Below, piece after piece: positions 6,044-32,743 of a stretch of 34,675 bases of DNA. This DNA comes from Singulisphaera sp. (lineage in GTDB: Bacteria; Planctomycetota; Planctomycetia; Isosphaerales; Isosphaeraceae): NCBI GenBank assembly GCA_027451445.1, contig DAIDJG010000300.1:1-34675 (forward strand), written 5' to 3'. The position numbers and the translations under genes are program-made. Position 1 is the stretch's first letter. Each line of letters opens with the position of its first letter. The notes below the pieces were generated by a model. That model had not been told where the DNA came from and ran no database searches. It saw only the letters and a list, made by a program, of their open reading frames with translations.

Positions 6044-6079
6044 AGTCAGGATCGCTTCCAAGCGAAAGTCCGATCCCAG

Positions 6080-6380
6080 CCGTTTTTTTCGTTTTGACGG
6101 GAACGATATATAACTCCCCCCCTTTGGGAAGGGGGGGGTAGGAGGGTGGGCCTTGACCACTGCTCACGGCCAGTGGCATTCGACCGTTGCAAACCCGGTG
6201 CTTCCTGCAAACGGTCGTAATCGTCCACGCGTTTGCAGAGGCTGGGTCGATTGCCGCGGTTACTCACCACCGCCCCAACCCCCCCTTCCCAAGGGGGGGA
6301 GTTATATAATCCTCGCTTTGAAAGGAAACGGGTGAGCGCACCGGGGCGACCGGTCGTATGCAACGCAAGCGTTATCCGCT
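6080..6380. repeat. Repeat family 1, copy A (G/C-run palindromic element)
   Basis: About 300 bp of non-coding sequence in which two hairpins face each other. The left half has ATATATAACTCCCC then TTTGGGAA then a G run, and the right half is its inverse, ending GGGGGAGTTATAT. The two halves together form one large inverted repeat around a roughly 150 bp centre. The right flank, from the AGTTATAT end through GGTGAGCGCACCGGGGCGA to GTTATCCGCT, matches copy B at 32333-32677 in the opposite orientation, and the centre also aligns with copy B. No protein is encoded. It may be a miniature inverted-repeat element or a structured intergenic sequence. Confidence 0.8.
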
Positions 6381-15828: not shown

Positions 15829-17112
15829 AAGACGACTCCTCAAAGGACGTGACGCAGAACGCGTAAGCGATGAGTGCGAAGACATCGATGAGCTACGATC
15901 GCTCGGAGCGAACGAGCGCGGAAAACCACCGCGAGACGAGCGGCCGGAGAGGAACCCTTGCTTTAACTTTTACTGATTCCCGACGAAGGACTGGACGGTG
16001 AATGCGGAACCTTAGCGCAGCGACGCACCTCATGAACGCAGGGGCCGAACGCTTGCGAATTGAGGAAAGGACTTGAACGTCCGTAAGCTTTCGCCCTGCG
16101 GAATCACCGGATCTTCAAAGCTCGTTCAAGTTTCAAGAAGTGTCAAAAAAAAATCAAGGGGGCAATACGTTTTCAGCCACAGTTTTATGGATGAAATGGT
16201 TCGGACTACGATCGGGACTGGGTTGAATGAATTGCTTAAACTACCGCCTTTGACGGTGAGAGCTGTAGCGCTTCGAGCGATCCGGTGCGCTTTCGGCCGT
16301 GCCATGCTACCGACTGGCGATGGAGGTTGGCGGTCCGACGACGGCTCACTCATCGCGTTTGGCACGGCTCTTATTTCATGGGTGTTCCATGGACGTGGTT
16401 GAGTACTGGTGGGGCGTCGGCCGGGATCGGCGAAGGAAGAAGTTCCCAACGGGCGGACAGGCTTCGGAACTGCCGGCGGCCTCGTCACCGAGCCGACGGG
16501 GTAGGGGGCGGCATCTCGAGCGCCGAACGGTTGGATTGCGCACGGTGGCAACCAATCAAAACACAGAAGCATCAGAACTCCCTCCCCCCTTGTGGGGGAG
16601 GGTTGGGGTGGGGGGTTCCGGACAACCCATGGCCGTGCGATGGCCCCCCCACCCCAGCCCTCCCCCACGATGGGGGGAGGGAGGAAGCTTTACCCACGCC
16701 CGTAACGTTAAGGCGCGTCCAGAAGTTTGGGATGATGGTGAGCGGGGACCGTCGGTGGCTGGTCGTGTGCAACCCAACGGTTAAGAGCTCTCGATTGATT
16801 TGGCACCCCGGTCAAGCGAGTTGCCCAAATACCATCGGTTTCCCCTCGATGACCTTGATCGTTGACAGTTCTGCGTTGGTACATAACCACGCGCCACTTG
16901 CCAATCATCTCAAATTAACCTAGAGTTGGTCCGAGGTTGGCTTTCGTGAAAGAGACGAGGGCCGAATTGTGCCCTGATTTGAACTTTCGAATTCGCGAAG
17001 TCAAGATTCCTTGGACCATTAGAGCAAGCCAAACCTCACTCGACGACGCTGTCGAGCGCATTGCGACAAATTGGCGCATTGACAAACACTCTTGTATGGG
17101 AGCCACAAAACC
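15829..17112. other. Long non-coding region containing repeat family 2 copy 1
   Basis: Almost 1.3 kb without a supportable protein gene. It contains a run of nine A bases at about 16144-16152 and repeat family 2 copy 1 at 16518-16790. Open frames across the repeat code for low-complexity Pro/Gly/Arg peptides that only reflect G and C runs. The last 200 bp should hold the promoter of the pilin gene, but no clear -35/-10 pair was identified. Confidence 0.55.
16518..16790. repeat. Repeat family 2, copy 1 (full form)
   Basis: A 273 bp non-coding element with imperfect terminal inverted repeats: left GAGCGCCGAACGGTTGG, right end reading inward GAGCTCTTAACCGTTGG-like on the opposite strand. Inside are two G/C-run hairpins in inverted arrangement (CTCCCTCCCCCC...GGGGGAGGG and CCCTCCCCCA...GGGGGGAGGG) followed by a conserved unique block starting CTTTACCCACGCCCGTAAC and ending near TCGTGTGCAACCCAAC. 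The same sequence recurs at 17748-17942 in the same orientation, minus one hairpin. Open frames across it are artefacts of the repeats. Confidence 0.85.
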
Positions 17113-17304: not shown

Positions 17305-18551
17305 CGTCAAATCGATGCCCTCGAGGCAATATCACCCGTCGCCAGCGCAGGTCTGAGGAGTGATCGTCGGGTGGCCAGTACCCTTCAACTCGGAGCCGGG
17401 TTGATAGGGCACGGCCACCCGTCTCGACCATCGGCGCGACCCGTTGCTGCGCCAAGCAGTCAAGCTTGGCTGGCTGTTCGCGGTCGAGGTCCTGAACAAC
17501 TCGCGTCCTTCACAAGGACAGTTGAAGTTGCGCGTTTTGAGTTCGGCGTCTGCGACGGCGCAAGGCGTTCCACCCGCTCTCGGGGAGCGAATGGCGTGGT
17601 TCGCCAGCGTTCGGGCATCGAAAGTCGTCTTTCGCTCCGCGAAAGAACGTGCGTTTTCTGACCGCTCGGTTCCTTCGCCAACGGCCATCGGCAAATCCAC
17701 GTGCCAGAACGTCAGACGAAAGCCGCCGCGTCCCGCGAGGGGCGTTCGAGCGCCGAACGGTTGGATTGCGCCCGGCGACAACCAATCAAAACACAGAAGC
17801 ATCAGAACTCCCTCCCCCACGGTGGGGGGAGGGAGGATGCTTTACCCACGCCCGTAACGTTAAGGCGCGTCCAGAAGTTTGGGATGATGGTGAGCGGGGA
17901 CCGTCGGTGGCTGTTCGTGTGCAACCCAACCGTTAAGCGCTCTCGGCTGAACCTCCCATTCTGGCTCATCGGAGCGCGAAGCGTATCCAGTGTCGGGGGG
18001 CGGAACGGAGCGTAAGGCCCGTCGACTCGCCCGTTCCTGCGCGGACGGTCGACGCGATCGCCACTGGCCTTCGCGTTGTCGACGCGCTACGGTTTGCGCG
18101 CGGTCCCCCCTTCTATATGCTCCGGGTAACTCGTTAGTTCTTACCGGCGTCGTCGTGGATAAATGCCGATTCGGCCGGGTCTTCCAACCAATTTGGGTGG
18201 CAAGGATTTCGTCGTTTTCGTCGCGCCGGACGTGCGCCGATTCCCGGGGTTTGGAGCCGTGATACGGGGTGTCCTTTCGTCTTTTTCCTCGTGGGGCAGA
18301 TCGCATAGCCCGTTCTCGCGTGTCCGCCCCCGCGTGTCCGACGATACCCCTCCGGAGAAGTCCGTTTCACCGTTTTCGACCAGGAGGGCGAGATGCGCGT
18401 GAAGGCCGATTGGCCTGCCCGACGACTCGGACCAGACTCAGGGGCGATAACTGCCTTTCGCGAAGGGAACCTCGTTGCGACCTGGCGAGCGCTGAAGCGT
18501 GGGATCAGTGCGCTGACTGCCGGAGTTGCAAGGCCGGTCCTCAGGTCTTCT
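17305..18551. other. Long non-coding region containing repeat family 2 copy 2
   Basis: About 1.25 kb without a supportable gene. It holds repeat family 2 copy 2 (17748-17942) and a perfect small hairpin TCTTTCGC-TCC-GCGAAAGA at 17628-17646. Frames on both strands across 18000-18550 are Arg/Pro/Ser-rich with no recognisable protein and look like chance reading frames in GC-rich DNA. Confidence 0.55.
17748..17942. repeat. Repeat family 2, copy 2 (one hairpin lost)
   Basis: A 195 bp direct copy of the element at 16518-16790. It has the same left end GAGCGCCGAACGGTTGG and right end CCAACCGTTAAGCGCTC, which together form a 17 bp terminal inverted repeat with two mismatches. The unique block after the hairpin is nearly identical to copy 1. 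Only one hairpin (CTCCCTCCCCCACGGTGGGG) remains: the 78 bp between the two hairpin halves of copy 1 are missing, as if the inverted halves had been collapsed by slippage or excision. Confidence 0.85.
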
Positions 18552-19734
18552 TCATGGGTGGTCTTTCCTTGAGGGAGCGCGGTGTTCCAGGGCGTGTTGG
18601 GCCGCCAGGATTTCGCGCCGCAAGGTTTCTTCGGCCGGCAGACGAGCCAGGTATTTTGAGGCGAACACCTGGGTCTGGATGCCGCCGGTGGCGTACTTGA
18701 CGACGGTATCGTTCTTGTCGGCACAGAGGATGATCCCGACCGGGCCCGACTCGTCAGGCAGGCTCAGGTGCTCGCGCGCGTAGTTGAGATAGAGATTCAT
18801 CTGACCGGCGTCGGCGTGCGCGAACCGGCCCGTTTTCAAGTCGATGACGACCAGGCAGCGCAGCCCTCGGTGATAGAGGAGCAGGTCGATCCGGTACCAC
18901 TCGTCCCCGACGCGGATTCGCTTCTGGCGCGCGATGAAGGTGAACCCAGTCCCCAGTTCCAGGAGGAACCACTCCAACCGGTGGATGATCGCCTCTTCCA
19001 GGTCGGTCTCGCTGTACTCGTCCTTCAGGTCGAGGAACTCCAGAAGGTAAGGGTCGCGGACCTCGTCCTGTGCCGAGATGGCGTCCCCAGGCTCGGCGTT
19101 TTGTCCTCGGGCGCGCATGGCGTCTTGGCGTTTCGACGCCGAGGTCCGCTCGAAGAACTGCGTCCCGATCTGGCGGTCGAGTTGTCGGACCGACCAGCCG
19201 CCTCGGATGGCTTCCGACTCGTAAAAGGCGCGGGCGTGCGGCTTGTCGACGGACATCAGCCGCGTGTAGTGCGACCACGAAAGCGGAAACGCGCCGAGGA
19301 GAACAGTCGGGTCGGGAACAACGGCAGCATCGGTCTTTGATGGGGATTGTGGGGACGGTGTACCCACTTTCTCGACGGGGTCCGAGAAGATCGCCAGCCT
19401 CGAAAATGCCAGACGGTGTCTGACATATTCGCCAGCCGAGGTAGAACGCCCTCATCTGTTGGAGGTTGACCCGGCTGAACCCTCGCCCAAACTTCGCCGT
19501 GAGGTCCGCCGCCAGGCGTTTGAGTAGTCCCTCGCCGTAACCCGCTCGTGCCTCGCCCCCTTGCTCGAATTCGACGATCCGCCGTCCCACTTCCCAGTAG
19601 GTTGCGGTGAGGACGCTGTTCACGGCGCGCGCGGCGCGGCGACGGGACTGCTCCAGCAACTCCGTAAGCCCGGCCACGAAGTCGCCGTAGTCGGGATCGG
19701 ACATAGCGGCTGGGATGGTCCTACGCCTCGCCAT
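18552..19734 (-). pseudogene. YhcG/DUF1016 PD-(D/E)xK nuclease, frameshifted
   Basis: Two reading frames together encode a complete YhcG-like protein of about 390 residues. The N-terminal DUF1016 helical domain (YGDFVAGLTELLEQSRRRAARAVNS to MRAFYLGWRICQTPSG) is read in one frame down to about 19380. The rest, from about 19376 to 18552, lies in a second frame offset by +1: FPLSWSHYTRLMSV, ARAFYESEAIRGGWSVRQLDRQIG, then the nuclease core RIDLLLYHRGLRCLVVIDLKTG with the catalytic Asp and Asp-Leu-Lys. The break is near GGGG at 19377-19380 (CCC-C on the coding strand). A single-base deletion, a sequencing error or +1 frameshifting at CCC-CGT would all fit. GGAGG sits just before the ATG pair at 19732-19737. 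It lies downstream of the restriction genes on the same strand. Confidence 0.82.
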
Positions 19735-19737
19735 CAT

Positions 19738-20143
19738 TCCTCCCCAACGTCGGCGTCTCAGAATTCTGGCCGGGCATGCAATCAGGGTGGATTGTGATGA
19801 CTGCGTCGCTGCCTGATCCCTCGTATTTGATACATGAAAACGAGACTTTGTTCTACCAAATCTCTTCAAACATCCTGGATTCAGTGCGTGGCCAATATTC
19901 TCCCCAGGTTCAGGAATTCCTCAGATCGACTCATTTTAGTTTGCCCTGTGGGGAGATTCCAGGACATGCTGTCTCGCTGGGCGGTTCCCTTCCGCGGTTT
20001 CGCGTCAGGGCGCCAGCAAAGTGCCTGTCCTGTCCTGCGGTCGGCTCGCCCCGGGATGCTTGTTCGACCCGTTGAGCGCCAAAGCTTTGGGTCAGGCCGG
20101 TGACACGCCGGAGTTGCAATGTCTGTCCGCTGGTCTTTTCCCT
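19738..20143. other. Spacer between res and the YhcG-like gene
   Basis: About 400 bp with no gene. A stretch at about 19830-19901 resembles 2812-2882 upstream of the KaiC-like gene, sharing GTGCGTGGCC and ATATTC at the same spacing; otherwise nothing notable. The size of the gap suggests that the YhcG-like gene has its own promoter. Confidence 0.45.
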
Positions 20144-23119
20144 TCACGCCGTAAGTACGTCGTCGAGGTTCGTCGCCTTGACGAAGCGGGCGGAATCTCT
20201 ACGGACTTCCAAGGCCTTGAAGTGGGCTTCCCCGCATCGAATCTTTGCGCTCTCGTGGCCGCGCAGGTCCTCCGCAAAAAGGCTGCCCTTCGTCTCAACG
20301 ACAAGATAGAGTCGCTCGTCTCCGTTCAGGTCGACCAGGATGGCCCAGTCAGGGTTGTAGTTTCCCAAGGGCGTGGGAACCGTGAACCAGCCAGGTAGCT
20401 TGGCGTAGACCTTCACGGCCGCGTTCTTCTCCAGTTGTTGGGCGAACGACTTCTCAATGCCTTCCGAATCGTAGACGACAAACTCGTGGACTGACTTTGT
20501 CGCCGCGAGCATGTTCTTCAGATAGCCGGTCAGCTCCTCTTGCTCGAACAGCTCTTGAGCGTAGTAATGCCCGTCGCCGAGGCGCTCGTACTTGATTCCG
20601 TCGACAAGGACCAGTCGCTTGGTTCGGTTGATGGCCTCGGCAGCCTGGTCGATGAACTGCTGCGGGTTCTTTTTGAAGTCGTCGAGTCGCTCACACTCGG
20701 TGAGAATACGGACGATGCTCCGGCGGGTGAGCTGTGTCTTGTCCTGAAGATCCGTAAGCAGGTCGGGCAGCTCCACGTCGGCTTCTTCGATGACGATCGG
20801 GGCGGAAGTCGCGGTCTCCTGGGCCGCGACGCCGGCCTTGCCGATCGCCAGGTCGGCCTTACGCCATTGCAGCCGAGTTTTGCTGATGGGTGGGCTGACA
20901 TTCAGCGCGAAGATGCACTTCTGGATCAAGGCCTCGTTGTCGAAATAGACGCGATAGGTTGTCTTGTGCTTGATCCGGTCCCACAGCGCCTTGAACTCCT
21001 CGCTCTGGAGAACCGCCTGGCGGGTTTTGACGTGCTGGCGTTCGTCGGCGTTCTTGATCTCGAGCCTGCCGGCAAGCTTCCTCAGAACGTCTTTCACCTG
21101 GGGGAGATGGACGCGGAACTCCTCGGGAAGCGTTAGCGTCTCGTCCTTCAAAGCCTGTCTCAGCGATTCCTGAATCTTCCCCTTTGAGTCGACCAAACCA
21201 CTCTTCTTGAGGTGATCCCAGATCGCTTCAGACCGCGCGACACCGAGGGGCGTCGCCTGGCCGCTCTCGTCCTTCACGGCGATGCCGGCGAACTGGTGTT
21301 TCTCGACGATGCCGAAGCGGATTCCTGTATCCGCTTCGATCTCCTTCTGCAGATTCTCAGCAAACTTCTCGTAGCTCTCCGTGGCGATGACGGTCAGCGT
21401 GTTCACGTCGAACCCGCGGAGCCGCTCGCCTTGCTGGTTGACGCAGAGGCGGAGGCCGCGGCCGATCGTCTGGCGGCGCTCGCGCTCGGTCCCCATGTCA
21501 CGCAGCGCGCAGATCTGAAAGACGTTCGGGTTATCCCACCCTTCCTTCAAAGCGGAGTGCGAGAAGATGAACTTCAACTTGCTCTCGAAGCTGAGCAACT
21601 TCTCCTTGTGCTTCATGATCAGGTTGTAGGTGTCATCGTCGGCCCTGGTCGCACCGGTCGTATCCTTGAAAACCTCGATCGTCTTGCCGGCCACTTTCTT
21701 CCGGTCGACCGAGAAGTAACCGTCGTGGACCTCCTCGGCGGTGGATTTCGTATCCACTTCCTTGAAGAGGCTTTGATACTTGGGCTTCCTGGCGGCCTTT
21801 GCGTATTCGTCCTCGAAGATCACGGCATACGGACCCTTCTCGGGCGTGCCGTCGTCCGAATAGCGACGATATCGCTCGACCGCGTCGATGAAGAACAGAC
21901 TGAGCACCTTGATCCCGTGCGGGGCCAGGCGGAGCTCCTTGTCGAGGTGCTCTTCGATGGTCCTCCGGATCATCAGCCGCTTCAGGTCGTCATCGACAAC
22001 GCCGCCGATGGACTGGCCGATGCGGAGCGGCTGTTCCTGATTCGACAGTTGCACGAACTCGTCGCCAGCACGGCAGCCGATGTTCTCGATGGTATAGCCC
22101 GAGTAGAGGGCGCGGTGTGTCGTCTGCTCCAGGTCGTCTCCCGCTTGCACCGTCACGGTCTTGCGCTGGACCGACGACGCTTGCTGGACGTCGAGCTCGA
22201 CCTTGGCCGTGATGCGATTGGCCCGATTGCTCACGGAGACGAGCTTGACGTAGGACTTGTTGTGGTCGCCCTCGACAGCCGCCGAGGCGACCTCGATCTG
22301 CTTGACGAGCTTCCGCTCGTAGGCGTCCACCGCATCGAGCCGGAAGACCATGTGGTGCTTGTCGGCGTGGGTCGCGGAGTAGCGCAGCGTGCAAAGCGGA
22401 CTCATGGCGCCGAGGGCCTCCTTGCCACGCCCCTGGAGGCCGCCGTCGACGCTCTGCGGCTCGTCGACGAGGATGACGGGCCGGGTGGCCTTGATCAGGT
22501 CAATGGGCTTGTAGTCGTCGGTCTTCTCGCTCTCCTTGTAGAGGTTGTTGACGTCCTGCTTGTTGATGGCCCCGACGGTCACGACCATGATTTGAACATG
22601 CGGGCTCGTCGCGAAGTTCCGAACCTGCCCGAGCTTCGAGGAGTCGTACAGGAAGAACTCGAAGGGGGTGTTGCTGTAGAGACTTCGGAAGTGCTCTTCG
22701 GTGATCTGGAGCGTCTTGTAGACGCCCTCCTTGATGGCGACCGAAGGGACCACGACGACAAACTTCGTGAAGCCGAACCGCTTGTTCAGCTCGAAGATCG
22801 TCCGGATGTAGACGTACGTCTTTCCGGTCCCGGTCTCCATCTCGACGGTGAAGTCGCCCGACGAGAGCGCGTCGGACGGCCGAAGCCCGTTCCGGAGCTG
22901 GATCGCCTCGAGGTTCTGGAGGATCTCGTCGTCGAGCAGTTGGAGGCGGTTCCCAATCCCAAGGTCGTTTTCGAGCCCGGCGAGCGCCAGGACACCCTTG
23001 CCGAAGCTTCGAGTTACCGTGAACTCGCTTCGGCAGATTTCCTGTCCGCGGAAAAGGTCGCACACCGACTCGATCGCGGCCAGTTGGTAATCCAGATTCG
23101 ATTCGAAGTGGAATTTCAT
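20144..23119 (-). CDS. res: Type III restriction enzyme, Res subunit
   Basis: The helicase-nuclease subunit of a type III restriction-modification enzyme, 991 residues, a usual length. It uses ATP to communicate along DNA between two unmethylated sites and cleaves there together with Mod. Visible motifs: Walker A METGTGKT at 94-101, Walker B DEPQ at 219-222, motif III RYSATH at 246-251 and the arginine-rich motif VI region QTIGRGLRLCVN. The C-terminal PD-(D/E)xK nuclease shows NPDWAIL at 922-928 and VVETKG at 940-945 (Asp924, Glu942, Lys944). All key residues are present, so it is probably active. It starts nine bases after the RhuM gene stop. Confidence 0.95.
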   Translation of the reverse strand: MKFHFESNLDYQLAAIESVCDLFRGQEICRSEFTVTRSFGKGVLALAGLENDLGIGNRLQLLDDEILQNLEAIQLRNGLRPSDALSSGDFTVEMETGTGKTYVYIRTIFELNKRFGFTKFVVVVPSVAIKEGVYKTLQITEEHFRSLYSNTPFEFFLYDSSKLGQVRNFATSPHVQIMVVTVGAINKQDVNNLYKESEKTDDYKPIDLIKATRPVILVDEPQSVDGGLQGRGKEALGAMSPLCTLRYSATHADKHHMVFRLDAVDAYERKLVKQIEVASAAVEGDHNKSYVKLVSVSNRANRITAKVELDVQQASSVQRKTVTVQAGDDLEQTTHRALYSGYTIENIGCRAGDEFVQLSNQEQPLRIGQSIGGVVDDDLKRLMIRRTIEEHLDKELRLAPHGIKVLSLFFIDAVERYRRYSDDGTPEKGPYAVIFEDEYAKAARKPKYQSLFKEVDTKSTAEEVHDGYFSVDRKKVAGKTIEVFKDTTGATRADDDTYNLIMKHKEKLLSFESKLKFIFSHSALKEGWDNPNVFQICALRDMGTERERRQTIGRGLRLCVNQQGERLRGFDVNTLTVIATESYEKFAENLQKEIEADTGIRFGIVEKHQFAGIAVKDESGQATPLGVARSEAIWDHLKKSGLVDSKGKIQESLRQALKDETLTLPEEFRVHLPQVKDVLRKLAGRLEIKNADERQHVKTRQAVLQSEEFKALWDRIKHKTTYRVYFDNEALIQKCIFALNVSPPISKTRLQWRKADLAIGKAGVAAQETATSAPIVIEEADVELPDLLTDLQDKTQLTRRSIVRILTECERLDDFKKNPQQFIDQAAEAINRTKRLVLVDGIKYERLGDGHYYAQELFEQEELTGYLKNMLAATKSVHEFVVYDSEGIEKSFAQQLEKNAAVKVYAKLPGWFTVPTPLGNYNPDWAILVDLNGDERLYLVVETKGSLFAEDLRGHESAKIRCGEAHFKALEVRRDSARFVKATNLDDVLTA

Positions 23120-23128
23120 GGAGGCGTT

Positions 23129-24205
23129 TTACTCCGCGGAACCTGGCTGATTCGGAGGGAGCTTTTTCTTCTTCGGCGCTCGGCGTTTCGCGGTGTCTTC
23201 CAGCGAATCGAGATTCGTGCGCTCCCCTTCGGCCTCGAGTAATGCTCGACGGCGCATGGCAAATCGCTCGTATTCGGCTTCGGCTCGACCATCGGCGTCC
23301 TGCTTGCTGATCGACCCCGCGTTGGTCAGCACGGCACGGTCGTTGAAAGCCAGAAACTCGTTGAGCTTCGTTTCCCAGTCCTTCAAGAACACCTGCTTCC
23401 GCCGGCGCGCCTGATCCTCGGCAAAGTCGAGCCACATCGTGACGATCCGATTCAACTCCCGAATCTCATCCTCATTGAGGTAGTTCTTGGCGACGGTCAC
23501 ATCATGCTTCCGGACCACGTCGCCCTTCCAGGTGTTGAGCCCCATGTTCGGTTGCGTGTGGTCGGCGCGGCGCGCGATCAGCTCGGCGGCCGTCTGGCCG
23601 GTTGCCGCATAATGAAGCTTGTTTTGAATGATCTTGAAGAATTCGACAGTCGTCTTTTGAGCTGGGTCGTAATCGGCGGCGAGCGCGAAAATCTCCCGGA
23701 CCCGAAGGTACATGCGGCGCTCGCTGGCGCGAATGTCCCGAATCCGTTCGAGTAGCTCATCGAAGTAGTCGGGTACGCCGGAACCTTCGACGGGCGGGTT
23801 CTTCAACCGCTCGTCGTCCATCGTGAACCCCTTGACGAGGTACTCCTTGAGTCGCTCCGTCGCCCAACGGCGAAACTGGGTCCCACGCGGCGAGCGGACA
23901 CGGTAGCCGACGGCGAGAATCACATCGAGGTTGTAGTGCTTTACGGCCCGACGGACCTCCCGGCCTCCCTCCTGGCGAACTTGTAAGTATTCCTTACAAG
24001 TTGCCTCCTCGTCGGCCTCTGATTCTTCATAAATCGCCTTGATGTGGAGGGTTATGTTCTGGGGGGTGGTCTGGAACAACTCGGCCATGAGCGCCTGACT
24101 GAGCCAGAGCGTCTCCTTCTCGAAGCGGCACTCAATCCGCGTTTGACCGTCGTCCGTCTGGTAGAGGACGATTTCGCCTTCGGGTGGCGGTTGCGGGACC
24201 GACAT
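23129..24205 (-). CDS. RhuM-family protein
   Basis: A 358-residue cytoplasmic protein of the RhuM family, first named from a Salmonella pathogenicity island and often found inside restriction-modification loci. Typical segments are GEIVLYQTDDGQTRIECRFEKETLWLSQALMAELFQTTPQNI at the N-terminus (a DNA-binding-like winged-helix pattern), then HYNLDVILAVGYRVRSPRGTQFRRWATERLKEYLVKGF, the most conserved block. The C-terminus is charged, with a Lys-rich tail (KRRAPKKKK). Its biochemical role is unknown. Position between mod and res, three bases from mod and nine from res, makes it an integral member of this operon. Confidence 0.9.
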   Translation of the reverse strand: MSVPQPPPEGEIVLYQTDDGQTRIECRFEKETLWLSQALMAELFQTTPQNITLHIKAIYEESEADEEATCKEYLQVRQEGGREVRRAVKHYNLDVILAVGYRVRSPRGTQFRRWATERLKEYLVKGFTMDDERLKNPPVEGSGVPDYFDELLERIRDIRASERRMYLRVREIFALAADYDPAQKTTVEFFKIIQNKLHYAATGQTAAELIARRADHTQPNMGLNTWKGDVVRKHDVTVAKNYLNEDEIRELNRIVTMWLDFAEDQARRRKQVFLKDWETKLNEFLAFNDRAVLTNAGSISKQDADGRAEAEYERFAMRRRALLEAEGERTNLDSLEDTAKRRAPKKKKLPPNQPGSAE

Positions 24206-24207
24206 GC

Positions 24208-26130
24208 CTACAGACTCCGGACGTTTTCCAGCCCGTGCTGCTGGAGGATGGCGGTGAGGTTCGACTTGGAGACGTCGTCGGCGAAAGCGCTATCGCGGAA
24301 GACAACCTGCGTCTCGCCCGCGGGGTTCAACTCCTGGTGCCAGGACGCGATTCCGTGGGCCAACGGCTCGAGGTCCTCCCGGGCGATCTTGGGGGTGAGG
24401 CAGACAAAGACTGAGCCGGCGCCGACGCTGTGCACGGTCTTGCTTTCGATCGTCTTGGACTCGATCGGGACCGTCAGCTCAAGACCAAGCTTGAGAAGCA
24501 ACTCGAACAGGACATCCTGCTCACTCCGGTCGGGTTTGATGTGCTCAACCGAGTCCAGGAGCGATTTTGGCAGATCTTCGCCGATGGCGTCCCATGCTCG
24601 GATGTTGCTCGTGTCGAGCTTGAAGACACGGAAACCATAATCGGCGGTAAGAAGAGGGCTCTGTTCGCGTAAATTTTCTGCCGCTCGCTTCAGCCGGAGC
24701 TTGGTGAGATCGGCGATAGTCGGAAACGCCTCTTGCCCCGTTCGTTCAGGGAGTTGCACGAGAATAAAGCGGCGATTGCCGGAATCTTGTTGATTGAGCT
24801 CCATGATTGCTTGGCCTGTGGTGCCAGACCCGGCAAAGAAGTCGAGGCACAAATCGTCCGTGTCCATGGACTGATAGGCAACCAATTTGATCAATTCGAC
24901 CGGTTTTGGAGTGAATGCGTCTGCCTGTGGAACTAGAGACCGCAGTGATTTCGTGGCAGCGTCGGTTGAAAGTTCGGGTCCGAACCAGGTGGATTTAGGT
25001 TTGGCGACTCGCTCCTGACCGTCCTCTTCAAGGTAAACCCTGTACGAAACATTCCAACGGTCTTTGTTCTCCACCTTGGTGGCCTGCAGGGTTTGCACGG
25101 CTTGCTTGACGCGAGAATATCCCCAACGCCAGCAACCATCTGTCTCGTCGCTTTTCTTCGGATAGATTTCCTGAGAAAACCGGCTCGATCGTTCCATGGA
25201 GCATTCTCCCGATCCGGGATCGGCGTAGATCGGGAAGTAGAGATTGGGCCTGGCCTTGCGAGTATCAGCTCCACCGCGCTTACGCAGATCGCGCCACTGA
25301 AACTTGAGGCCGTCTTCATCAGCGTGCTTGTATTCAGACAGTTGCTTGCTCGTCAGAGGCAGTCCCAGAGACTCGAAGTCGTGCATCGAATAAATCAGCA
25401 AGTATTCGTGTGAAGTCGCAATGTGCGTTCTGTCGTTGCGGCCTTTGAGGTTGTTAACGACACAGATTTGGCCAGCAAAACACTCCTCGCCAAAGACTTC
25501 ATTCATAATGCAACGAAGATTGTTTACCTCGTTGTCATCGCAGGAGGCAAAGATAACACCGTCATCACTCAATAAATTATGTGCAAGTTTAATCCTCGGA
25601 TAAATCATGTTTAACCAGTCAGTATGGAACCGCCCGGAGGCTTCCGTGTTGGTGCTCATACGGTGGCCGTTCCCGCTGACCTGGCCTGTAATCTCCAGAT
25701 AGTTCCGTATGCTGTCCTGAAAGTTGTCTGGGTAGACGAAGTCCTTGCCCGTGTTGTAGGGCGGGTCGATGTAGATGAGCTTAATTCTCCTGGCGTAGCT
25801 CTTTTGCAGGAGCTTGAGGACCTCAAGGTTATCTCCTTCGATCACCATGTTCTGACTCGTATTCCAATCAACACTTTCGTCCGGAAAAGGTCGGAGCGCC
25901 CCGGTCGAAGGCGTAAGGGCCAACTGTCTCGCCTTTCGCTTCCCATGCCAGTTGAGCCCGTACCTCTCCTCCCGTTCGTCGACAGCCCCGCCAAGAACCT
26001 GCTTGAGCACCTCGAAGTCAACCTTGCCTTCGGTAACTACTTCCGGGAACAACTCCTTCAGCCGGTCGATATTCTCGGCAAGGAGGTCGGCGCTCTTCGA
26101 TTCGTCGGACTGGGCGGTGATCTTTTGCAT
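24208..26130 (-). CDS. mod: Type III DNA methyltransferase, Mod subunit
   Basis: Adenine-N6 DNA methyltransferase of 640 residues that recognises the target site for the type III enzyme and protects self DNA. TSQNMVIEGDNLEVLKLL leads to the catalytic motif IV DPPYNTG at 122-128, and the S-adenosylmethionine motif I FAGSGTT is at 432-438. The order IV then I places it in the beta class, as expected for Mod. The region between (about 220-400) is the target-recognition domain, so the recognised sequence is set there. It begins 16 bases after the DUF4391 gene. Together with Res it makes a full type III pair; alone it would still methylate. Confidence 0.95.
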   Translation of the reverse strand: MQKITAQSDESKSADLLAENIDRLKELFPEVVTEGKVDFEVLKQVLGGAVDEREERYGLNWHGKRKARQLALTPSTGALRPFPDESVDWNTSQNMVIEGDNLEVLKLLQKSYARRIKLIYIDPPYNTGKDFVYPDNFQDSIRNYLEITGQVSGNGHRMSTNTEASGRFHTDWLNMIYPRIKLAHNLLSDDGVIFASCDDNEVNNLRCIMNEVFGEECFAGQICVVNNLKGRNDRTHIATSHEYLLIYSMHDFESLGLPLTSKQLSEYKHADEDGLKFQWRDLRKRGGADTRKARPNLYFPIYADPGSGECSMERSSRFSQEIYPKKSDETDGCWRWGYSRVKQAVQTLQATKVENKDRWNVSYRVYLEEDGQERVAKPKSTWFGPELSTDAATKSLRSLVPQADAFTPKPVELIKLVAYQSMDTDDLCLDFFAGSGTTGQAIMELNQQDSGNRRFILVQLPERTGQEAFPTIADLTKLRLKRAAENLREQSPLLTADYGFRVFKLDTSNIRAWDAIGEDLPKSLLDSVEHIKPDRSEQDVLFELLLKLGLELTVPIESKTIESKTVHSVGAGSVFVCLTPKIAREDLEPLAHGIASWHQELNPAGETQVVFRDSAFADDVSKSNLTAILQQHGLENVRSL

Positions 26131-26146
26131 GGAACTCGTCCTGTCG

Positions 26147-26890
26147 TCAAAGGTTAGCGACGGCCTCGGCCAGTTCCGCTTCGAGCCGGCGGATTGTCAG
26201 ATTCAAATCGACGCGGCGGTTGAGCTGCGTCTCCTTGGTGGCCTGGGTCCGCAGGCTCCGAATCTCGTGCTCAAGTCGATCATGAAGCTCCAATGCCGAG
26301 CGGCGAGCCGCCGTGGACTCAGGTGAGGAGCAGCGCATGAAGCGACCAGTGATTCGCGATGCCTTCAGGGCTTCAACCCACTCGATCCAGCCCTGGTAAA
26401 CGGCCATTAAGTTGGCACGAGGTTGCGACCCGATCGCGAGCCCGGCATACAAGGAGGAATCCGCCGGTAACAGGTCCACAGATACAAGTGCTCCGTTGAG
26501 AACGGTTGCGCCTGCCTCGTTCTGGGAAGATCTCTTGTGCGCGAGTGAGAGGGTCAGGTTCTCAGCCTGCGCCGCTACGAGAACGACAGGATATGGTATC
26601 GCCCGATGAACCAGTTCGGAGAGCCGTGTCGATTTCGCCTCCGACCGAAGGACCAGTGTGAGCACCGCGATCTCCAGATACGCACGGGTGTCGTCCCGAT
26701 AATCGGGTACGCCAACGGTACTCGGCTTGAGGGCGGCGATCCAGCGAAGTTCTTCGAGTCCGTCCTGGATATGGCGCTTATCCGCAGCCGTGGGAGTGCC
26801 TTTCTCCAGCAAGAGCTTTTTCGGCACGCGCTGATCGACGCGAGCGTCGGAGGGGAGCGCCAGGGCGTCGATAATGGCGGCGATCGTCAT
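26147..26890 (-). CDS. DUF4391 family protein
   Basis: A 247-residue protein matching the DUF4391 pattern: VPKKLLLEKGTPTAADKRHIQDGLEELRWIAALKPSTVGVPDY at the N-terminus, then a conserved central beta-strand region and a C-terminal coiled-coil (about residues 195-247, RRSALELHDRLEHEIRSLRTQ...RRLEAELAEAV). Function is not established; family members occur next to SNF2-like helicases and type III Mod/Res genes, as here. It overlaps the helicase stop by four bases (ATGA), so the two are translated together and likely bind each other. The coiled coil could be the contact to helicase or Mod. Confidence 0.85.
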   Translation of the reverse strand: MTIAAIIDALALPSDARVDQRVPKKLLLEKGTPTAADKRHIQDGLEELRWIAALKPSTVGVPDYRDDTRAYLEIAVLTLVLRSEAKSTRLSELVHRAIPYPVVLVAAQAENLTLSLAHKRSSQNEAGATVLNGALVSVDLLPADSSLYAGLAIGSQPRANLMAVYQGWIEWVEALKASRITGRFMRCSSPESTAARRSALELHDRLEHEIRSLRTQATKETQLNRRVDLNLTIRRLEAELAEAVANL

Positions 26891-29800
26891 GAGCCCGCAT
26901 CCTCAGGCAGAACGACCAGCAACGCGACGACCTCGAAGTCATTGATCCCCGCGAATTCACCCTTCATGGCATGCGTGCCGCCGGGTGCGAAGAGGCTCGC
27001 GACGGCACGTTCCTCTTTTTTGCCCACAACGGAGGACACGGCCCTGGCGAGTAACTCCTGAACGGGTTCCATGTCCTTACCGTCGCGGGTCTGCTTGTCG
27101 AACCGAGTGCAGGCCGGCGTATCGGGAACGTCGCGTCCGATGGCGATTCGCTTGAGGCGGTCGAGCACCTGCTTTGCCTGGGTGTAGGGGAGTAGCACGG
27201 AGCCGTCTTCACCCACGTGAACCAGATAGTGGGGCGCGAGCGGGTAGCCCGACTCCGCGAGACTGCCGGCATTCTCGCCCACCGCCTCGAGGCAGAAGAT
27301 CACGCCCGGCGGTATGCCCGAATCTTCCGGGAGCGACGTCGTCACGGCGAACGTCCCCAGGGGAAGCGCCTCGAGACGGCCCGGGTGGGCCTTGAGAAAG
27401 CGCGCCAGGTCGATGCGGAAGTCGTTCAGCGTCAGGTCGGCGATCGAGACGCCGGTCGATAGGTCCTCGAGGTCGATGACAGTATCTTGCAGCTTGAGCA
27501 GTTGTTTCCTGCGGTATTCCAGGTCGTTCATCTGGTTGCCCGACTGCTGCTCAATGAGGTTCTCTTCGCCGGTCGCCGAGATGTCGAGCAAGACCATCCG
27601 CCCGCTCACGCGCTGTTCGAGGTTAATGTACTCCTCCAGCTCCATGTTGGGCCAGAAGTTCACGAGCTGGATCTGGGCGTTGGGTGAGCCGATCCGGTCG
27701 ATTCGGCCGAAGCGCTGAATGATGCGCACCGGGTTCCAATGGATGTCGTAGTTGATCAGCCAGTCACAATCCTGGAGGTTCTGGCCCTCAGAGATGCAGT
27801 CGGTAGCGATCAGGAGGTCGAGCTCGCCTTCGCTCGCAAGCTCCTCGGGCCGCTCCTTCGAGCGGGGGGAAAAGGCTGACAGGATCGAGGCCAGGTCTTT
27901 CCGCAGGGACGGCAAGGTCGTCTGGTTTCTGCCTGTGCCCGTCACGAGGGCGGTTTCGATTCCGAGCGTCGTTCGAGCCCAGGGGGCCAAGTGTTCGTAG
28001 AGGTAGCCGGCTGTGTCGGCGAAGGCCGTGAAAACGATGACTTTGCGATTGCGCGGGTTGATCGGATTGCGGCACTTCTCCTCAATCATCGCGCGGAGTT
28101 CGGTGAGCTTCGCGTCGCGCGCTGCGGTGATCTGGGCCGCCGCGGCGTGCAGCGCTTCCAGCCGGTTGCGGTCCTCGATCAGGTCCTGCTTCCAGCGAAC
28201 GAGATCGACGTCGTTCAGAAGGACTTTGATCTTTCGGCCGACTAGCAGGCTCTCGAAGGCGGGATCGTCGATATCGACGTCTCCGATGTCGATCTCCTCC
28301 ATTACTCCCGCGTTGGCTTCGATCCGATCGAGCGTCAATTGGACGTCCCTGAGCTGCCGTGCGACCGTCAACGTGAACGAAGGCACGGCGCTCTCCATGC
28401 GCTTGAGCACGTTCACCCGGAGCAGATGAATCAAACTCTCCTCGCGGTCGACCTGCCGGAAGTACCCTTCGCCGCCCTTGAGTCGGGTGCTGTACTTGGC
28501 GTCGTAGGCGGCCTGTTTGTGCGGGAGCACGTACCGGAGCGGGGCATACGCCGAGAGGTTGAGGCGGCGAATTTCGAGGTTGATCTCGCGGATCGAGCGA
28601 AACGCGCCGGCGAGGTCGACGTCGGGTTTTCGGTTGATCGGCTTGAGCCGGTCCGGAAAGCGGCCAGTCTCGCTCGTGCCGTAGTATTTTTCGACATGCT
28701 TCCGCGACCGGGCGATCGTGAGGAGGTCGAGCAGCGTGAAGTAGTCGAAGCCCAGCATGTCGATGAGCTGGGTGGGTGTTCGCTCGGGCTCAGACAGGTC
28801 GAGCCAGCGGTTGAACTGCTTCTGTGCGAGTCGGGTGGTGCTATCGATGCTCGTGATCCCGTGTTCCGCGAGGGCGGTATCTTCGCCTTCCGTCGCAAAC
28901 GCGATCTGGTTTCGCAGGTCGGCGAGGCGATTGTTGACGGGCGTCGCCGACAGCATGAGAACGCGGGTCCGGACCCCTTCCTTGATGATTTGCCGCATGA
29001 GCCGGTCGTAGCGGGTCTCGCTTCCCTGGCGCGGGGTCTTCTTGTTCCGAAAGTTATGCGACTCATCGATGACGACGAGGTCGTAATTGCCCCAATTGAC
29101 GTGCGATAGGTCGATATCGCCCGAGAGCCCGCCATCGCGGGACAGGTCGGTGTGGTTGAGGACGTCGTAGTTGAGGCGGTCGGGAGCAAGGCTGTTGCGC
29201 CGGTCGTTCGCCTTGTAGAGCGTCCAGTTGTCGCGCAGGCGCTTCGGGCAGAGGACGAGCACGCGGTCGTTCCGGAGCTCGTGGTACTTGATGATTGCGA
29301 GGGCCTCGAACGTCTTACCGAGCCCCACGCTATCGGCGATGATGCAGCCGCCAAACCGATTCAACTTGTCGATTGCGCCAATAACCCCATCGCGCTGGAA
29401 CTTGAAAAGCTTGTTCCAGACCACGGTGTTGCGGATTCCGGTCGCGGACTTGACGATTCGTTCTTCGTCGAGTTCTTCGCCAAGGTTTTTGAAGAGATGA
29501 AAGAGGATGAGGAAGTAGATCAAAGACGGTGGCTTGTGTTCGACGAGATCATGAAGATTCGCGAGCAACGAATCCTTCGTGACAGCCGAGGCCGGCAAGT
29601 TGCTCCATTGGTTGGTGAACCAGAAACGGAACGGGGTGCATTCGTCGGCGTTCTCTGACGACTGGATCAGACCGAACTGATTGCCGGGCGTTATGCCCAG
29701 GCCCTCGGTGGTAAATGCACAGTTTCCCATGATAACCCGGTCGCGCGCGGGGTCCTCATTCCCGGCGATGAGCGCGGCCTGAGGGATGACGCCCGAAACG

Positions 29801-30096
29801 GAGCGGACTTCCGCTTTTCGTTCGATCCAATTCGCACACTCTTTCGCCAACCATCGCGTCTGGAGTCGGTTTCTGAAGGGCCGGTCCGATCCACTGCCGA
29901 CAAGCGAGCCATTGAGCGACTCACCCATGGGCAAGATCAGCCGGCATTGGGCCAGGTGAGCCAGGAGTTCCCGCACCTCACCAAATGCGAACAGAGAAAA
30001 CGCGGGCGAAGCGCAGTCGAGCCGAGCGTTCGGATTGAGGCAACGCCTCAGTTCGTCGATCACGCGATCGTTGCCGGAGTTTTTGATAAGACGCAT
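26887..30096 (-). CDS. SNF2-type DEAD/DEAH helicase with degenerate PLD-like N-terminus
   Basis: First gene of the minus-strand defence operon, 1069 residues. The N-terminal 165 residues resemble a phospholipase D-like nuclease domain (CASPAFSLFAFGEVRELL, MGNCAFTTEGLG, then GNQFGLI), but the catalytic HxK appears replaced around Pro105-Gln106-Ala107-Ala108, so it is probably inactive. The helicase core has Walker A DSVGLGKT at 255-262, DESH at 344-347, SATP at 383-386 and the C-terminal SNF2 lobe with IATDCISEGQNLQDCDWLINYD and IIQRFGRIDRIGS. A charged helical insert (about 560-690) separates the lobes. This architecture is typical of defence-linked DNA translocases. The start at 30096 is the first ATG after a 238 bp divergent intergenic region. 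Confidence 0.9.
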   Translation of the reverse strand: MRLIKNSGNDRVIDELRRCLNPNARLDCASPAFSLFAFGEVRELLAHLAQCRLILPMGESLNGSLVGSGSDRPFRNRLQTRWLAKECANWIERKAEVRSVSGVIPQAALIAGNEDPARDRVIMGNCAFTTEGLGITPGNQFGLIQSSENADECTPFRFWFTNQWSNLPASAVTKDSLLANLHDLVEHKPPSLIYFLILFHLFKNLGEELDEERIVKSATGIRNTVVWNKLFKFQRDGVIGAIDKLNRFGGCIIADSVGLGKTFEALAIIKYHELRNDRVLVLCPKRLRDNWTLYKANDRRNSLAPDRLNYDVLNHTDLSRDGGLSGDIDLSHVNWGNYDLVVIDESHNFRNKKTPRQGSETRYDRLMRQIIKEGVRTRVLMLSATPVNNRLADLRNQIAFATEGEDTALAEHGITSIDSTTRLAQKQFNRWLDLSEPERTPTQLIDMLGFDYFTLLDLLTIARSRKHVEKYYGTSETGRFPDRLKPINRKPDVDLAGAFRSIREINLEIRRLNLSAYAPLRYVLPHKQAAYDAKYSTRLKGGEGYFRQVDREESLIHLLRVNVLKRMESAVPSFTLTVARQLRDVQLTLDRIEANAGVMEEIDIGDVDIDDPAFESLLVGRKIKVLLNDVDLVRWKQDLIEDRNRLEALHAAAAQITAARDAKLTELRAMIEEKCRNPINPRNRKVIVFTAFADTAGYLYEHLAPWARTTLGIETALVTGTGRNQTTLPSLRKDLASILSAFSPRSKERPEELASEGELDLLIATDCISEGQNLQDCDWLINYDIHWNPVRIIQRFGRIDRIGSPNAQIQLVNFWPNMELEEYINLEQRVSGRMVLLDISATGEENLIEQQSGNQMNDLEYRRKQLLKLQDTVIDLEDLSTGVSIADLTLNDFRIDLARFLKAHPGRLEALPLGTFAVTTSLPEDSGIPPGVIFCLEAVGENAGSLAESGYPLAPHYLVHVGEDGSVLLPYTQAKQVLDRLKRIAIGRDVPDTPACTRFDKQTRDGKDMEPVQELLARAVSSVVGKKEERAVASLFAPGGTHAMKGEFAGINDFEVVALLVVLPEDAGS

Positions 30097-32299: not shown

Positions 32300-32332
32300 G
32301 CGGCAAGTTCTCGTCCAATCACATCATGTCTT

Positions 32333-32677
32333 AGAGCGGATAACGATTGCATTGCATACCGCCGATCGCCCCGGTGCGCTCACCCATCGCTTCTCAAAGC
32401 GAGGAATATATAACTCCCCCCCTTGGGAAGGGGGGGTAGGGGGGGTGGGGAGTAGCCGGCGCTATTGGCTCGAGCGTCTGCACGCGTGTGGAGGATGACC
32501 GTCGTTTCCTGGGAAATGACGGGTTCGCGACGGCCGAATGCCGTTCGCCGTGAGCGGAGGTCGAGGCCCCACCCCCCCTAACCCCCCCTTCCCAAGGGGG
32601 GGAGTTATATGTCGCTCCCGCGCAAACGGAAAATGACGGTTGGCCATACTGTGTACTATTCGAACGTTAAGCGCTCT
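32333..32677. repeat. Repeat family 1, copy B (inverted relative to copy A)
   Basis: About 345 bp, the reverse-orientation counterpart of 6080-6380. It begins AGAGCGGATAACG and ends CGTTAAGCGCTCT, an imperfect terminal inverted repeat. Inside are GAGGAATATATAACTCCCC with a C-run/G-run hairpin and, 150 bp on, the inverse hairpin ending GGGGGGAGTTATAT. The flank GCCCCGGTGCGCTCACC matches the copy A flank as its reverse complement, and the central part also aligns. Unlike copy A, both outer ends are recognisable here, so this is the better template for the element's limits. Confidence 0.82.
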
Positions 32678-32743
32678 AGCGTTTCCCCTTATCGCCGCCG
32701 TTCCCGGGTTTGAGCGAGAAGGGGCCCTTTGCTCGCATAACTG

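Follow-up and report, generated by a model that had tools for sequence, protein, structure and literature searches.

Inverted pairs of triplex-type G/C modules between IS630-type ends in a Singulisphaera genome

A repeated element in the window and across the genome

The window analysed here (34,675 nucleotides of Singulisphaera sp. DNA; GenBank assembly GCA_027451445.1, contig DAIDJG010000300.1) contains two copies, A and B, of a repeated element, as well as two members of a second sub-family (Table 1). Copy A adjoins a histidine-kinase gene and, judging by length, the end of A that can no longer be recognised is expected near the stop codon of this gene; a paralogue of the kinase gene (75% identical) is located at positions 3436-4873 of contig C511 (genome G000). 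Between A and B, a run of defence-like genes extends over positions 18552-30096 and includes genes for type III restriction (20144-23119), a methyltransferase (24208-26130) and an SNF2-type helicase (26887-30096), together with matches to PDC-S05 and PDC-S02. Two overlapping small open reading frames at 318-970 appear toxin-antitoxin-like by eye, and PADLOC returned no match for them. The window gave no Rfam match at the gathering threshold, and B contains no open reading frame of 100 or more amino acids.

The initial annotation described A (6080-6380) and B as copies in opposite orientation, and our search of the element's own genome confirms this relationship (80% identity over ~300 bp, E 4.4e-70). 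The limits of B are wider than previously noted, because the element starts with TAGAGCGGATAACG and ends with CGTTAAGCGCTCTA; its terminal inverted repeats, TAGAGCGGATAACG and TAGAGCGCTTAACG, both start with TA. Between these ends lies an inverted pair of G/C modules with the sequence C7TT-GGG-AAG7-TA-G7TG. Comparison of A with B gives identities of 83% for the end, 83% for the spacer and 93% for the module in the left half, 70% for the core, and 78% for the module, 61% for the spacer and 34% for the end in the right half.

Table 1. Location of the element copies and their parts in the window
Feature	Position	Strand	Remarks
Copy B, putative full-length MITE	32332..32678	+	347 bp; TA at either end
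B left terminal inverted repeat region	32332..32360	+	TAGAGCGGATAACG...; 23/29 bases as in the left end of the G010 IS630-family element
B left G/C module	32408..32452	+	predicted class II triplex-type motif; 9 triads, 1 mismatch; hairpin
B core	32453..32567	.	varies among copies
B right G/C module, inverted	32568..32612	-	9 triads, 1 mismatch; hairpin
B right terminal inverted repeat region	32651..32678	-	TAGAGCGCTTAACG on minus strand
Copy A, older	6076..6380	-	end near 6380 degraded, opposite end unrecognisable
A G/C module	6106..6150	+	third arm mutated, fails triplex rule
A second G/C module	6264..6308	-	8 triads, 1 mismatch
Second sub-family copy	16516..16792	+	related ends, CCCTCCCCC-type module pair
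Second sub-family, collapsed copy	17746..17944	+	core and half of each module lost, single hairpin remains

Further copies, whose absence would have counted against the initial interpretation, do exist: in the 10.88-Mb assembly (622 contigs), B matches 97 pieces and A matches 136. Four other near-full-length copies of B (on contigs C561, C11, C426 and C430) are 88-93% identical to it, and many older or broken copies accompany them. Exact hairpin stems occur at 209 places and an 18-base pattern of the outer end has 65 exact matches, while the reversed control patterns gave none in either case. Several sub-families can be distinguished, which have their ends in common and differ in their insides; besides that of B, they comprise elements of 274-278 bp with another G/C hairpin and elements of 203-233 bp with hairpins of other sequence. 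A collapse that removed the core together with one half of either module, and left a single hairpin, has occurred not only in the window but also on contig C90 (locus L055). The translated open reading frames around the two second sub-family copies of the window repeat one another, which suggests a local duplication.

Ends shared with IS630-family insertion sequences

The ends of B also bound IS630-family insertion sequences of ~1 kb in other genera of the family (genomes G002 and G010). At one G010 locus (L111), two such ends lie ~1 kb apart and enclose an open reading frame for a transposase of 313 amino acids; the left one agrees with the first 29 bases of B at 23 positions. An end matrix trained solely on ends from the genome of the Singulisphaera window was applied to 30 relatives of this transposase and detected an adjoining end for 14 of them, as compared to none of 20 control loci. 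B shares its terminal inverted repeats with IS630 elements, is short and multicopy, and has no transposase gene inside. Because its ends are those of ~1 kb IS630-family insertion sequences elsewhere in the family, B is, on sequence grounds, classified as an IS630-type miniature inverted-repeat transposable element (MITE), with A as a presumed older copy from which one end has disappeared.

Elements of the IS630 family use TA as their insertion site and duplicate it, and a preference for CTAG is announced in the title of a work cited in this context (PMC2170065). In our data, the base preceding TA is C or T at 60 of 65 ends; given that TA itself belonged to the search pattern, only this flanking pyrimidine counts as independent evidence of target choice. 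The genes flanking A were also followed in 12 relatives in search of an empty site, which yielded gene fragments and paralogues only and no junction.

The draft assembly itself returned no homologue of the partner transposase, which is present in 26 of the 59 genomes searched. This absence is no proof, because the body of at least one multicopy insertion sequence is missing from the assembly. Moreover, many bacterial MITEs have, to our knowledge, no known partner, and we therefore do not consider the missing transposase decisive. Four DDE_3 matches in the genome were also considered as partners and rejected, since none of the four loci has two ends of the type found in B.

Triplex-type modules: conservation, insertion and distribution

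The class II rule for potential intrastrand triplex motifs asks for a pyrimidine arm, a purine arm and a mirrored third arm, with loops of 1-6, a stem of 6-15 and, above 7, at most one mismatch (PMC4666352). This rule is passed by 46 of 51 sampled modules as compared to 3 of 51 controls, in which the module tail was swapped for random sequence from the same locus. B passes with both of its modules and A with one of its two, and by this definition the B modules are assigned to the class II potential intrastrand triplex motifs, also referred to as BoxC, PIT or TM repeats. The left module of the second sub-family copy at 16516 carries an A/T step at the matching place in all three arms (CCCTCCCCC, GGGGGAGGG and GGGTGGGGG), comparable to the motif described in E. 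coli (PMC4666352). The rule returned no motif for the collapsed copy at 17746 and none for the right module of the 16516-16792 copy, though we believe that the latter stretch was cut wrongly. When treated as single-stranded DNA, B as a whole folds far better than shuffled sequences (z -9.9), and isolated modules fold slightly better (z -1.1 to -2.3). The G/C module is also a possible candidate for quadruplex formation.

The modules are strikingly uniform in copies that have otherwise diverged. Across eight old copies, mean identity to B reaches 97% and 91% for the two modules, compared to 51-69% for ends and spacers and 67% for the core. Of the initial description of conserved arms and flanks around a diverged centre, the conservation of the G/C modules thus holds, but in these older copies the ends and spacers fare no better than the core. 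To guard against a search bias towards copies whose modules are intact, we also used the core alone and the ends with spacers alone as queries. For the end-and-spacer query, an exact 25-base stem was present in 12 of 20 copies (mean identity 85%), with 1.0 expected; for the core query, the exact left stem was present in 8 of 14 copies (mean 83%), with 0.8 expected. The former sample represents 20 of 31 places, after removal of the query itself, one place cut by a contig end and nine with E >=0.016, and the latter 14 of 23, after removal of the query itself, two places at contig ends and six with E >=0.09; one locus without a module (L328, 52%) was retained. Uniformity extends to the unpaired loop, which, counted by eye, reads GGG/CCC at 50 of the 50 places among the matches listed for this genome. 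In the congener G001, the loop is ACG/CGT at 16 and different at 6 of the 22 places among the matches listed, again counted by eye. Compensatory changes in the stems, the lack of which would likewise have counted against the initial interpretation, could not be demonstrated, because the arms are too uniform: they are nearly invariant, and the few changes in single arms (loci L289, L300 and L320) are uncompensated.

The module hairpins are also landing sites for other insertion sequences. The end of one such element, used as a 127-base query, lies inside a module hairpin at all five of its places in the genome. In the set of fetched loci, where modules are over-represented, ends fall within the hairpin in 14 of 14 cases for this element, 3 of 4 for a second and 4 of 4 for a third, and one complete derivative of 217 bp has TTCCCAA on either side. 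We did not find the identity of the insertion sequence ending in TTTTGAAGTTGCGC, whose 127-base end occurs only near contig ends.

To define the settings of the modules, every exact-stem place listed on contigs C2-C146 was collected and grouped into 35 loci. A recognisable IS630-type end (score >=6) is found at 11 of these, and in 16 of 70 module flanks as compared to 0 of 62 control windows; four of the 16 are training sequences of the matrix. At the remaining loci, the ends have decayed or the setting is a different one, such as back-to-back pairs or a second end type, CTTACGCGTTAACTTAACG. Given that 24 of the 35 loci are without a recognisable IS630-type end, MITEs explain part, and not all, of the module copies. 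Inverted ends of the CTTACGCGTTAACTTAACG type are located within the G tails of modules and have modules of their own (L045, L251, L267, L268, L271 and others).

Exact stems are also present in G001 (29), G005 (20) and G007 (3) and were not found in 17 other relatives searched. In the genera of these three genomes, module pairs are located between ends of similar general type (L108, L115, L093 and L086), and the sequence around the element is the same in G005 (L118) and at an Isosphaeraceae locus (L375). As G005 belongs to the family of the window, this agreement makes Isosphaeraceae the most likely family. The exact module pattern gave no match among named genomes, a set that may leave out the window's own genome, and a broader pattern retrieved at least 112 stretches, including some from planctomycetes, cyanobacteria, Nitrospirae and Nitrospinota. 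In Oscillatoria princeps, three of six loci read have a module pair between inverted ends of the TATAGC type, so that TM pairs inside MITE-like ends apparently occur in one cyanobacterium too. The loci read in Tychonema and Microcoleus showed no module pair between inverted ends. In these two genera, G7/C7 module arrays without visible inverted ends were noted (L371, L380, L374 and L360), some of them apparently within genes.

Spread of the module pairs and relation to known repeats

The element is most likely a non-autonomous MITE of the IS630/Tc1 type that carries a pair of triplex-type modules as cargo, and whose modules remain alike as the vehicle decays. The TAGAGCG...ACG ends would have been recognised and bound by an IS630 transposase, which was not detected in the draft assembly; this enzyme would then have excised the element and inserted it at TA, preferably within YTAR, presumably with duplication of the TA. 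With the inverted class II triplex-type pair as cargo, each past jump would have spread one pair. Copies would subsequently have decayed, whereas the 200-odd modules of the genome may have stayed alike by being copied onto one another, through gene conversion or module mobility, perhaps with help from selection; other insertion sequences also land in the hairpins. The initial proposal of selection or spread through structure is borne out insofar as the element is dispersed and conservation is unusually high in the parts that bear structure, but the vehicle is probably a MITE of the IS630 type, and it is the pair of G/C modules that is conserved rather than the flanks.

A tentative alternative is that the G/C module is itself mobile or self-copying, whether by slippage, by gene conversion or with the help of an unknown enzyme, and that MITE ends are just one of its several homes. 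Modules that remain intact where ends have decayed agree with such a unit, as do the loop, which among the matches listed is fixed in this genome as GGG/CCC and mostly ACG/CGT in G001, and the occurrence of modules beside another end type, back-to-back and as end-less arrays in Tychonema and Microcoleus. However, the near-full-length copies of B share module position, spacers and ends, so that the element as a whole accounts for much of the spread, and neither a duplication nor an enzyme for the module alone was found. Selection on the modules as a regulatory, RNA-end or chromosome-structure signal seems improbable, although it would fit their strong conservation amid decayed surroundings. Besides the lack of an Rfam match in the window, a related E. 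coli motif was reported to show no promoter or terminator activity (Holder et al., PMC4666352, as far as consulted), and pairing alone would not predict an unpaired loop that is fixed and differs between genomes. The loop should be free to vary if selection acted on pairing only, and we therefore favour homogenisation between modules, or module mobility, as the means by which they have been kept alike.

Short palindromes in inverted pairs also recall REP/BIME repeats, which a RAYT (Y1) transposase mobilises, and the genome does hold nine Y1_Tnp matches. This origin is very improbable, however: a module is present at none of these nine loci and at none of 11 Y1_Tnp loci in relatives, and the 51 modules have no constant GTAG or CGTC tag. 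Finally, A and B could act as an inversion switch for the intervening 26 kb, an idea for which their opposite orientation and 80% identity over ~300 bp might speak. We give this hardly any credence, since the ends of A are degraded and the pair is not special in a genome with 209 near-identical stems.

Beyond the IS630-type MITE with its module cargo, we speculate that the triplex-type module is a self-propagating or self-homogenising unit, which colonises IS630-type MITEs and travels with them in both Isosphaeraceae and cyanobacteria, becomes uniform in each genome by being rewritten to a single sequence specific to it, and offers other transposons a docking site. While this possibility is doubtful at present, it would, if true, explain in general terms the spread of TM/PIT repeats through bacteria. 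The presence of TM pairs in MITEs provides a testable route of spread, and as the vehicle decays around a frozen cargo, it can also be tested whether structure-prone DNA is copied between its copies. Given that the same modules collect insertion sequences, they may also shape the positions of rearrangements in these large genomes.

IS630 MITEs, TM motifs and the targeting of palindromes by insertion sequences are each known separately. Judging by titles and abstracts, none of the papers located presents TM pairs as the cargo of a MITE, which is weak evidence of absence as most subscription journals were outside the search. As in the ISY100/IS630 family (PMC2170065, in the parts consulted), the element appears to use a TA target and has ends common to related elements, here in this bacterial family; unlike them, the window copies have no transposase. 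RUP of Streptococcus pneumoniae, a MITE linked to IS630-Spn1 (PMC2229807), is likewise gene-less, short and multicopy with IS630-type ends, and it has a TA target, as B probably does. However, RUP measures 107 bp and has no DNA motif reported in the consulted parts of that source, while B measures 347 bp and has a paired G/C module cargo, and its partner transposase was not found in the assembly. Insertion sequences are known to land in REP palindromes (PMC1525189, as far as consulted), and here they land in palindromes as well, although the targets are triplex-type modules inside MITEs. A further likeness is to the BoxC/PIT/TM repeats (Holder et al. 2015, PMC4666352, in the parts consulted), which have the same order of a C arm, a G arm and a second G arm with short loops, the same inverted pairs and the same collapse of a pair into a single hairpin, the palindromic TM pairs of E. 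coli being reduced to a hairpin by small deletions. For that species, no link of these repeats to mobile elements was seen by the authors, whereas in Singulisphaera the pairs lie inside MITE ends.
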